The translations under genes were made by a program, and so were the position numbers. DNA of 64,000 nt from Kozakia baliensis (GTDB lineage Bacteria > Pseudomonadota > Alphaproteobacteria > Acetobacterales > Acetobacteraceae): the NCBI RefSeq assembly GCF_001787335.1, contig NZ_CP014674.1, positions 2,088,501 through 2,152,500 on the forward strand, given 5' to 3'. The notes beneath the pieces were generated by a model. It worked only from the letters and a program-made list of their open reading frames with translations. It was not told where the DNA came from and searched no databases. Positions 60,841 through 64,000 of the stretch are shown here, one piece after another. Every line of letters starts with the position of its first letter. The stretch's first letter is position 1.

Positions 60841-62967
60841 CTAACCGTTCGGCAAACCGGTTTTGGAAAGCAAAACGGACAATTTCTTCTGCAATTCCGC
60901 CGGAAGATAAGCGTGATGAGACATGGCGCGCGCCACAGAAAGCTCCGGGGCCAGCCGCAGCACTTGATTGCGCACCGAGGCGATCTCCTGTTCCGGCGCG
61001 TCCCGATCCGCCAATGTCAGCAGATAGTTGAACAAGCCACGCGTGCAGCGCGGATAGAGCCCTGCGAAAGCCGCCCCGGCCTGTTCGGCCTCACGCATAT
61101 TTCCGCACAAGATCAATACCAGAATGCTGCTTGGCTCACACAGCGCCGAGGCCGGATGATCGACACGCGCATCGCGGAAAAGCTTCATCTCAGCCGAAGC
61201 CGTTTCGTAATCCTCGGAAAGAAGGGCCTGCATGGAAAGGCACCAATGCGTCAGAGGAGAGCCAACATGCAGCGATGCGCCATCATACCCCCATTTCTGC
61301 CTTCGCTCCGCCAAGATCGCCTTCGCATGGGTCAGCAACCCTTCCGAAGTCGTTTCCAGGCAAACGGATAGCATCATGGTAAGGGGATTTTCGCCAAGCT
61401 GGCTGGAGCAACGCGTGGCAAGCCCGACAGCCTCGCTCAATTCCGCCGCGTAATCGGCAACCCACAACTCCTGCGCCGCTTTGCAACGCACCAATGCATG
61501 AACGAACAGAACCAGCGGCAAATCGCCATCCAATTCAACGGCGCGTCCGATCAAGGACTGTATTTCGCCTATCAATGTGCAGTCGGTTCGAAGCAGCAGA
61601 ACCAAAGCCCGCAAAGCCAGTCCCGGCGCCGAAAGTTCCTTCACCGGCCGCATGCTAAGGCGCTGCCCTTCAGCGACCAGTAACGTCCACTGCATCAAAA
61701 TTCTGATGGTGTAAAAAAGTGCTTTCCGTTCTACGTCGTTTTCAGGAAGATCGAACCGATCCGCCCAGACGATGCTGCCCTCCTGGCGCAGATCCAGTAC
61801 ACGCACGATCAAATGCCCTTTGGCACCGGAGTTAGGCGTGCTGTTCGAGCGTAGAAGTCCGGTTACGACATAATCGTTGCCCGCCCGGCGCAAATCTTCC
61901 CAAAAATCCGCGCTCTTTTCAGTGATGTTCTGCGGAAATGGCAAAATGGTGAACATCTGCAATTTCTGCAGCCCCACTTCGATCATATCCGTCATTTCGG
62001 CTGCAACATTTTGCAGGCCCGTATTATGCGCGGCGGAGAACGGCATGATCGTCAAAGTGCCCAGCCGGCGCTGGAAAGCGCCCCCTGGCACGGCCATCGC
62101 AGAAAGCGGCTCGCGCAGCATGACATCACCGCCGGCGGACACGGCGTTTTCATGCAGCGGCGCGACGGTTTCCGCGCTCGACGCCTCTCCCACGTGCCCT
62201 AAGGCAGGATCGATTTTCAGAGGAGAGCGTGACTGCAATCCCGTCACGAGCGCCATGGTCGCCGGGCCGGGCTGCGTTCCAAGCCGCTCTTGGAACAGAT
62301 GAACCACCTGCTCAGCATAATTCATGGCCAGAGCACGCTCGCCCGTGCTGATCAAGGTCTGAATACGGGTGCGCCAAGCGACTTCGTTCAGTTCTTCGCG
62401 TTGCAGCAATTGCTCCGCGACATCCAGAAGAATCTCCGGATCCGTCTGGTGGCGCAACGCGCTTTCGAACAAACTTCGGATATGGCGCTCCAACCGATCA
62501 CGCTGGTTGGCCAACCATTCATCGAACGCGCCGTCAATCCCGTTCAATTCGCCCAGCAGCACTTCCGAAGGCGGCGGCAAATCACGAAGAACGCTGATCC
62601 CGCCATTCAAAATACGCTCCGCATCCACGGAGGTCAGGGCGGGCTTGAGCGATAGCGCATGACGCTGAACATTGATGATCTCAACCCCCAGCGGGCTGAG
62701 CGCATCCAGCAATCGATGAATTTCCTGGCGCAGCGACGCACGGGCCAGATCGTCTGGGCGGCGGCTCCAAAGCAATTCCGCCAGCCGGGAACGCGCCACC
62801 GGTTTGCGATCCGACAATGCCAGAATCGCCAGCAGGCTTTTCGTCTTTCCACCCACGGGCAAAACACTATCGCCTGTGAGCGCTCGGGCTTCCATCGTGC
62901 CGATAAGACGCAAACGCAGCAACGTGGAATCGATCTTTGCCAAACCGCGCACAGCCAAATCCAACAT
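60841..62967 (-). CDS. SARP/BTAD-type transcriptional regulator with TolB-like and helical repeat regions
   Basis: A 708-residue regulator. Residues 15-105 form an OmpR-like winged helix of the SARP type (PVGGKTKSLLAILALSDRKP, ELLWSRRPDDLARASLRQEI). Residues 110-250 form a bacterial transcriptional activator domain. Residues 300-430 resemble the TolB-like region found in CadC/cyclase-type regulators (LTIMPFSAAHNTGLQNVAAE, NDYVVTGLLRSN, VWADRFDLPE). The rest is helical and TPR-like. GGAG lies 3 bases before the ATG. It is monocistronic and divergent from the intron-bearing tRNA gene. Target unknown. Confidence 0.82.
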   Translation of the reverse strand: MLDLAVRGLAKIDSTLLRLRLIGTMEARALTGDSVLPVGGKTKSLLAILALSDRKPVARSRLAELLWSRRPDDLARASLRQEIHRLLDALSPLGVEIINVQRHALSLKPALTSVDAERILNGGISVLRDLPPPSEVLLGELNGIDGAFDEWLANQRDRLERHIRSLFESALRHQTDPEILLDVAEQLLQREELNEVAWRTRIQTLISTGERALAMNYAEQVVHLFQERLGTQPGPATMALVTGLQSRSPLKIDPALGHVGEASSAETVAPLHENAVSAGGDVMLREPLSAMAVPGGAFQRRLGTLTIMPFSAAHNTGLQNVAAEMTDMIEVGLQKLQMFTILPFPQNITEKSADFWEDLRRAGNDYVVTGLLRSNSTPNSGAKGHLIVRVLDLRQEGSIVWADRFDLPENDVERKALFYTIRILMQWTLLVAEGQRLSMRPVKELSAPGLALRALVLLLRTDCTLIGEIQSLIGRAVELDGDLPLVLFVHALVRCKAAQELWVADYAAELSEAVGLATRCSSQLGENPLTMMLSVCLETTSEGLLTHAKAILAERRQKWGYDGASLHVGSPLTHWCLSMQALLSEDYETASAEMKLFRDARVDHPASALCEPSSILVLILCGNMREAEQAGAAFAGLYPRCTRGLFNYLLTLADRDAPEQEIASVRNQVLRLAPELSVARAMSHHAYLPAELQKKLSVLLSKTGLPNG

Positions 62968-63291: not shown

Positions 63292-63627
63292 GTCCGCGTA
63301 GCTCAGCAGGATAGAGCACAGGATTCCTAAGCTCGAATTGGGCGCCACGATGGGAAACCGCGTGGTGGATTCACTCAAATTCGGGGAAAGCTCTGGTCAT
63401 CGCGACCGTGCCAATCCCGAGCCAAGCCTCATCTTTGATCCCTCGAAGATCATTAGATTGAGCGAAGGTGTAGAGACTGTATGGGTGACGCCTGTCGGCC
63501 AAATTTTTGGCCCATGGCGAAGAGACAGTCCAGACCACGAACGGTCTCGTTCGTAACGAGACCGGCGGCGAAAGCCGAAGTGGTAAGAATCCTGGGGCCG
63601 TGGGTTCGAATCCCGCCGCGGACACCA
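63292..63627 (+). tRNA. tRNA-Arg (anticodon CCU), interrupted by a group I intron; CCA encoded
   Basis: Exon 1 is 63292-63328 and exon 2 is 63588-63627. Spliced, it folds as a perfect cloverleaf. The acceptor is GTCCGCG (63292-63298) with CGCGGAC (63617-63623), and the D stem is GCTC/GAGC. The anticodon stem is CAGGA (63319-63323) with TCCTG (63590-63594), and the loop is TTCCTAA with anticodon CCT at 63326-63328. The T arm is GTGGG-TTCGAAT-CCCGC (63600-63616), with discriminator A and encoded CCA (63625-63627). It reads AGG (arginine) codons. Without splicing the anticodon arm cannot form, so the intron must be removed for function. Confidence 0.95.
63329..63587 (+). other. Group I intron (IC3-like) in the anticodon loop of tRNA-Arg(CCU)
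   Basis: A 259-base intron inserted right after the anticodon; it has no ORF. P1 is CCTAA (exon CCT plus AA) with TTGGG, giving the conserved U-G pair at the 5' splice site (T63328 with G63340). P2 is CGCCACG/CGTGGTG (63343-63349 and 63361-63367) capped by GG-GAAA-CC. The core phrases TCAAATTCGG, CCGAGCCAAGC and GAAGGTGTAGAGACT match the Azoarcus tRNA-Ile intron. P7 is GACTGT/ACAGTC (63475-63480 and 63525-63530) and P8 is GGCCAAA/TTTGGCC. P9 is GGTCTCGTT/AACGAGACC, followed by a GAAA-capped CGGC/GCCG hairpin. The last intron base is the expected G. Confidence 0.92.
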
Positions 63628-63638
63628 TCCTTCCCTGA

Positions 63639-63920
63639 TCAGATGGAAACGCTTCCCCCGCCTGACGCGAACAGGGAGTGCAACAGCACCAGCAGCAAAA
63701 ACACGCCAATCAAGATGCCGAAAAGCTTCCCGAACCAGCGGAACGCCAAAGCGATCAATCCCAGCAAAAGCAAAGCCAGCAACGCCGTCTGGACCTGACC
63801 GCCGATGCCCAGACGTTCCAGCCCCTCACGGGCCGCATGCTCGATCACGACAATAACCGAGACGATCAGGCTGAATAGGCCGACGATCAACCCGACCAGC
63901 AAACCATAGAGATGCTGCAT
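63639..63920 (-). CDS. Small membrane protein of unknown function
   Basis: A 93-residue hydrophobic protein with two predicted helix regions (about residues 5-30, LLVGLIVGLFSLIVSVIVVI, and 45-85, LLALLLLGLIALAF and ILIGVFLLLVLL). They are separated by a short charged amphipathic segment (EHAAREGLERLGIGGQ). It starts at ATG 63920 behind AAAGG; 15 in-frame codons before it are polar and unlikely. It is convergent with the tRNA gene, only 11 bases apart. I recognise no family. The 80 bases to its right hold no gene that I can see. Confidence 0.65.
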   Translation of the reverse strand: MQHLYGLLVGLIVGLFSLIVSVIVVIEHAAREGLERLGIGGQVQTALLALLLLGLIALAFRWFGKLFGILIGVFLLLVLLHSLFASGGGSVSI

Positions 63921-64000
63921 GAAAAAACGCCTTTCGTCGCACGGACCGTGCGGACTTGCAGACATTCAGGAACCTTGAAGCGGCGTCAAGTCAGAACCCG

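Follow-up and report, generated by a model that had tools for sequence, protein, structure and literature searches.

Group I introns that split tRNA-Arg(CCU) were reportedly described in Agrobacterium tumefaciens by Reinhold-Hurek and Shub in 1992, and Paquin et al. are said to have described the alphaproteobacterial family in 1999. Such introns have been known from Agrobacterium since 1992 and from other alphaproteobacteria since 1999, going by the references cited in PMC7717549, and the tRNA-Arg(CCU) intron BbgpI of Bartonella bacilliformis self-splices in vitro and is spliced in vivo (PMC7717549). Among acetic acid bacteria, one tRNA-Arg was recorded in 2015 as interrupted by a group I-like sequence in Asaia bogorensis, Acetobacter pasteurianus, Gluconobacter oxydans, Komagataeibacter and Gluconacetobacter (PMC4596401). 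Leu(UAA) and Arg(UCU) introns have been published for Beggiatoa and Thiomargarita (PMC4853749), and the authors of tRNAscan-SE state, for fMet and Ile2, that group I introns are missed (PMC8450103).

Here we analysed a 64-kb stretch of the Kozakia baliensis genome (the window), for which an original prediction had proposed a tRNA-Arg(CCU) gene interrupted by a group I intron, a further member of the known introns in an acetic acid bacterium. The organism is indeed placed in the Acetobacteraceae, and the window intron is a well-preserved further member, from one more genus, of an intron family on record since 1992. Its occurrence there is no surprise, as five genomes were annotated likewise in 2015 (PMC4596401). 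That report concerns the same bacterial family and kind of gene as the window but different genera, and its record is a table footnote only, without the fold, site and phylogeny given here.

The split tRNA-Arg(CCU) gene

With introns allowed, ARAGORN found one tRNA in the 64-kb window, a tRNA-Arg(CCU) at 63292-63627 that is interrupted after U36 by an intron of 259 nt, whereas without the intron option it found zero tRNAs across the same 64 kb. The gene consists of the following parts:

63292..63328, + strand: tRNA-Arg(CCU) 5′ exon, last base U36 of the anticodon (ARAGORN intron mode)
63329..63587, + strand: group I (IC3-like) intron, 259 nt, without an ORF with a family match (RF00028, identity to the Agrobacterium intron, no Pfam match)
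63588..63627, + strand: tRNA-Arg(CCU) 3′ exon, first base A37, with encoded CCA end (ARAGORN intron mode)

Splicing the two exons in silico yields a perfect 77-nt cloverleaf including the CCA, which appears only when 63329-63587 is taken out; the split at this interval, as proposed, is exact to the base. With cmscan, the Rfam group I model RF00028 matched 63294-63554 over its full length (model positions 1-253) with 47.9 bits and an E-value of 3.4e-11 for 501 bases, or 5.7e-11 for the 3.5-Mb genome, in which the window intron is the sole match. The score lies 2.1 bits below the curated gathering cut-off of 50 bits, and a search at that cut-off did not report the intron, so routine annotation would miss it. 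Although sub-threshold, a match that covers the intron at this genome-wide E-value bears out both the group I identity and the expectation that the Rfam model would find it. The split gene at 63292-63627 is a genuine tRNA-Arg(CCU) gene with a group I intron, its borders lying where they had been predicted.

RF00005 found 46 other tRNAs in the K. baliensis genome, every one typed from sequence. None of them is a second tRNA-Arg(CCU), an intact copy of which, together with unspliced RNA from the split locus, would have spoken against the prediction; the other Arg genes carry UCU, CCG and, twice, ACG. Because tRNA-Arg(UCU) could read AGG through wobble, the cell may not strictly depend on the split gene. 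Absent from the 46 matches across the whole genome are tRNA-Ile(GAU) and tRNA-Ala(UGC), possibly because rRNA operons are absent from or masked in the assembly.

Upstream of the split tRNA lies a gene for a BTAD-domain regulator (60841-62967, − strand) and downstream a gene for a 108-aa protein without a Pfam match (63639-63965, − strand). Both are conserved next to the intron-bearing tRNA at three further loci (L033, L034 and L107). The two genes were seen only beside intron-bearing loci, so no empty allele was caught in synteny; the intact tRNA-Arg(CCU) genes of relatives sit in other gene neighbourhoods. Promoter and terminator scans at the locus gave nothing above chance.

Kinship and descent of the intron

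The window intron shares 80% identity over 219 aligned bases with the A. tumefaciens tRNA-Arg(CCU) intron (L259), 78% with two Bartonella introns at the matching tRNA-Arg(CCU) site, 79-84% with the three Acetobacteraceae introns tested and 65-66% with Azoarcus-like tRNA-Ile(CAU) introns from betaproteobacteria. The Agrobacterium intron occupies the same gene and U36 site and has the same fold, but is 223 nt long against 259 nt here, the P6a, P8 and P9a arms of the window intron being bigger. B. bacilliformis BbgpI, for which self-splicing is known, likewise sits in tRNA-Arg(CCU), but in a host of a different order. The group IC3 intron of Azoarcus pre-tRNA-Ile(CAU) agrees with the window intron in its U36 site and architecture. 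Among 210 tRNA introns placed in one tree, the Ile2 introns form a single clade with 100% SH-aLRT that leaves out the window intron, whose nearest rows are all Arg(CCU) introns. Given this exclusion, the Arg(CCU) host and the 65-66% identity, we rejected Azoarcus-type tRNA-Ile(CAU) introns as its nearest kin. The core phrases that had suggested an Azoarcus likeness are real and common to betaproteobacterial Ile2 introns, but the closest relatives are Acetobacteraceae and other alphaproteobacterial tRNA-Arg(CCU) introns, not the tRNA-Ile(CAU) type. Judged by its U36 site and its grouping with Arg(CCU) introns, the window intron is a member of the alphaproteobacterial tRNA-Arg(CCU) family. Leu(UAA) introns belong to the same subclass and also occur in Acetobacteraceae, but they are inserted after U34, carry a different guide sequence and fall mostly apart from the Arg(CCU) introns in the tree.

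Across the Acetobacteraceae, RF00028 introns were found in 116 of 397 genomes and 37 of 102 genera, counts from which the survey filters drop weak cases (G001, G006 and G009 scored negative, yet a DNA search shows the intron). The intron lies in tRNA-Arg(CCU) at 92 of the Acetobacteraceae loci examined; one locus of the family, L154, types as a split tRNA-Arg. Such patchy presence in the sampled genera would be expected if the intron were a recently arrived mobile element, gained through reverse splicing or with a horizontally transferred tRNA locus and not by descent. Horizontal transmission and transposition were argued by Paquin et al. (1999), going by the title that PMC7717549 cites for that paper. 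In addition, 13 outside rows stand among 96 Acetobacteraceae rows in the Arg(CCU) intron tree, which requires 8 changes, and a single family clade is not recovered.

Several results nevertheless weigh against recent arrival, which we regard as unlikely. A single Acetobacteraceae clade of Arg(CCU) introns is not rejected (p-AU 0.105), and the introns closest to that of the window all come from this family. Within the Arg(CCU)-only tree, the 29 genera need 28 changes, which is the minimum and makes each genus one clade (shuffled mean 72.7). Over all 210 tRNA introns, the host tRNA labels change 21 times, as against 91 in shuffles, and the Arg(CCU) label changes 4 times for 109 rows, as against a shuffled mean of 70; the introns mostly keep to their own tRNA site. 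Nor does the intron bring an endonuclease gene: the longest ORFs over 63329-63587 encode 72 and 112 aa, and a Pfam search of both gave zero matches. The intron is thus ORF-less, as predicted, in that no ORF over it has a Pfam match, and a homing group I intron was rejected for want of an endonuclease ORF with such a match in this interval.

Since the genus labels are at the minimum number of changes, the intron has been inherited with its host below the family level, where its transmission is mainly vertical. At the level of genera, the Arg(CCU) intron tree thereby supports the suggestion that the intron was vertically kept. Intron-less tRNA-Arg(CCU) genes of relatives, which represent the empty site, are identical to the joined window exons at 70-73 of 77 positions, a conservation that points to selection on the mature tRNA.

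Fold and covariation

The structural elements of the intron are listed below. Pairing was counted in an alignment of 90 distinct tRNA-Arg(CCU) introns of Acetobacteraceae, scored on the structure of the window intron.

63326..63342, + strand: P1, exon CCU plus intron AA (63326-63330) with guide UUGGG (63338-63342); 99% of cells paired
63337..63339, + strand: P10 partner AUU, 3 bp with AAU at the 3′ exon start (63588-63590); from sequence
63343..63367, + strand: P2 hairpin with GAAA tetraloop; 99% paired, two-sided changes at 4 pairs
63371..63376, + strand: P3 5′ strand, partner 63483-63488, pseudoknot with P7; 100% paired, two-sided changes at 3 pairs (76 cells)
63380..63421, + strand: P4 (63380-63385 / 63416-63421), enclosing P5 and L5; P4 97% and P5 100% paired, two-sided changes in P5
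63475..63479, + strand: P7 5′ strand GACUG, partner CAGUC at 63526-63530, guanosine-binding helix by homology; 100% paired, nearly invariant
63489..63519, + strand: P8 hairpin; basal P8 100% paired, two-sided changes at 3 pairs
63535..63583, + strand: P9 (63535-63538 / 63580-63583) with P9a and P9b (GAAA loop); P9 100%, P9a 86% and P9b 100% paired, many two-sided changes
63587..63587, + strand: terminal guanosine (omega G), final intron base; from sequence, conserved in the Acetobacteraceae alignment

Each element named in the original prediction was found: P1 with a U-G splice-site pair (U63328.G63340, which marks the 5′ splice site), P2 with its GAAA loop, P7, P8, P9 and the terminal G. P6 is present as well, so the intron combines an RF00028 match with a P3/P7 pseudoknot, P4-P6, P8 and P9, the core of a group I intron. 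Across the 90 introns, two-sided (compensatory) changes occur in P2, P3, P5, P8, P9, P9a and P9b, and P10 is partly kept, pairing in 74% of cells across 4 pairs. With all helices taken together, 90.2% of cells are paired; shuffles averaged 80.7% and reached 81.3% at most, in a test that is inflated by the relatedness of the sequences. Sliding the partners by 1-2 columns reduces pairing to at most 46% for P3, 40% for P7, 34% for P8 and about 46% for P9. P4 and P6 still pair well when slid in this way, so their support is conservation and homology; P6a was left out as evidence, its assigned register being about 2 columns off.

These data bear on whether the intron is decaying in a dispensable tRNA gene, with the fold still recognisable, splicing lost or weak, and AGG read by tRNA-Arg(UCU). 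The presence of that tRNA in the genome and the score just below the Rfam cut-off would both fit; as tRNA-Arg(UCU) could read AGG, a failure of splicing might be tolerated, which counts against the reading that we favour, a self-splicing intron. However, the near-invariant core positions are kept, the window copy shows complete pairing in P1, P3, P4, P7, P8 and P9, and the exons are intact. Many Acetobacteraceae introns score as low or lower, which suggests that the covariance model, and not decay, accounts for the low score. We consider decay extremely unlikely. That an unrelated group I-like spacer lies by chance between two chance tRNA halves has a vanishingly small probability, since beyond the sub-threshold score nothing speaks for it, and the genome-wide E-value, the independent tRNA evidence and the 92 homologous Acetobacteraceae loci, with the same site and with covariation, refute it.

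Predicted splicing, and related introns in other tRNAs

We are close to certain that the window holds the only tRNA-Arg(CCU) gene of this genome, interrupted after U36 by an ORF-less IC3 intron that would splice itself, be inherited mainly vertically and have little or no other role. The exon and intron borders, the fold and its covariation, the single copy, the kinship and the genus-level clustering form the basis of this reading in our analysis. By homology to the described introns, the window copy is expected to be transcribed, to self-splice in a guanosine-dependent manner and to yield a product that is charged. The pre-tRNA would be transcribed whole and the intron would fold, the CCU end of the 5′ exon pairing with the internal guide GGG so that a U.G pair lies at the splice site. 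Once bound in P7, a free guanosine would attack after U36, and the released 5′ exon would attack after G63587, joining U36 to A37. This would produce a normal, AGG-reading tRNA-Arg(CCU), and the intron, passed on mainly with the host lineage, would do little or nothing else.

Related introns in Acetobacteraceae also split tRNA-Leu(UAA), tRNA-Arg(UCU) and tRNA-Thr(UGU), each after U34, tRNA-Thr(GGU) and tRNA-Asn(GUU) after U36, and tRNA-Lys(UUU). At L092 (G166) and L093 (G418), an intron at about 1510-1757 follows U36 of tRNA-Asn(GUU) and scores 77-78 bits, above the Rfam cut-off. In both genomes the split gene is the sole tRNA-Asn(GUU) found, so its splicing looks obligatory there. The tRNA-Thr(GGU) introns, also after U36 and with a guide GCC that matches GGU, were seen at L067 (G023), L069 (G021), L157 (G232) and L160 (G111), and outside the Acetobacteraceae at L214, L307, L338 and L341; an intact tRNA-Thr(GGU) was not found in G111 or G021. 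Fragments of tRNA-Thr(GGU) also occur on their own, as 5′ halves (1-37) or 3′ parts (30-75), some of them near the split gene (G023:C23:518520-518556, G023:C10:31237-31282, G232:C270:2212-2248 and G232:C270:3725-3770); integrating elements may have left them behind as remnants of attachment sites. A literature search confined largely to open-access papers found no Asn or Thr cases, a faint hint of novelty.

At L066 (about 316-610; G023:C1:444316-444610), an intron of the same type interrupts an unusual tRNA that has a long variable arm and, once spliced, seemingly an anticodon loop of 8 bases (CCCUAGUG); this may be a suppressor-like or decayed relative of tRNA-Leu. Further tRNAs that related introns apparently split, for Lys (L203, L321, L327, L329, L339 and L343), Thr-UGU (L143, L305 and L312), Arg-UCU (L161, L191 and L194) and Phe-GAA (L257, L266 and L278), with splice sites assigned by script only, are spread over several classes and phyla. 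The core motif GAGCCAAG...AAGGTGTAGAGACT recurs in L206-L280, whose genomes carry the labels of many phyla; Patescibacteria-type MAGs are among them, as is one Methanosarcinaceae MAG (L231) that is possibly misbinned.

As sole detected copies in some Acetobacteraceae genomes, the split tRNA-Asn(GUU) and tRNA-Thr(GGU) genes would hardly survive without splicing. A bolder proposal is that the intron is retained because GTP- or guanosine-dependent splicing gates the supply of the tRNA for rare AGG codons, within a broader, family-specific spread in which IC3 introns entered at least six isoacceptors, among them the sole detected Asn(GUU) and Thr(GGU) tRNAs of some species; we think this very unlikely.

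For K. baliensis, the favoured reading of a self-splicing intron in its only tRNA-Arg(CCU) gene corrects the annotation: a genome seemingly without tRNA-Arg(CCU) has one, hidden from default ARAGORN and from the Rfam cut-off. It also supplies another example of an ORF-less group I intron that has descended within one bacterial family, and the related introns in several tRNAs of that family make the movement of introns from site to site directly testable.
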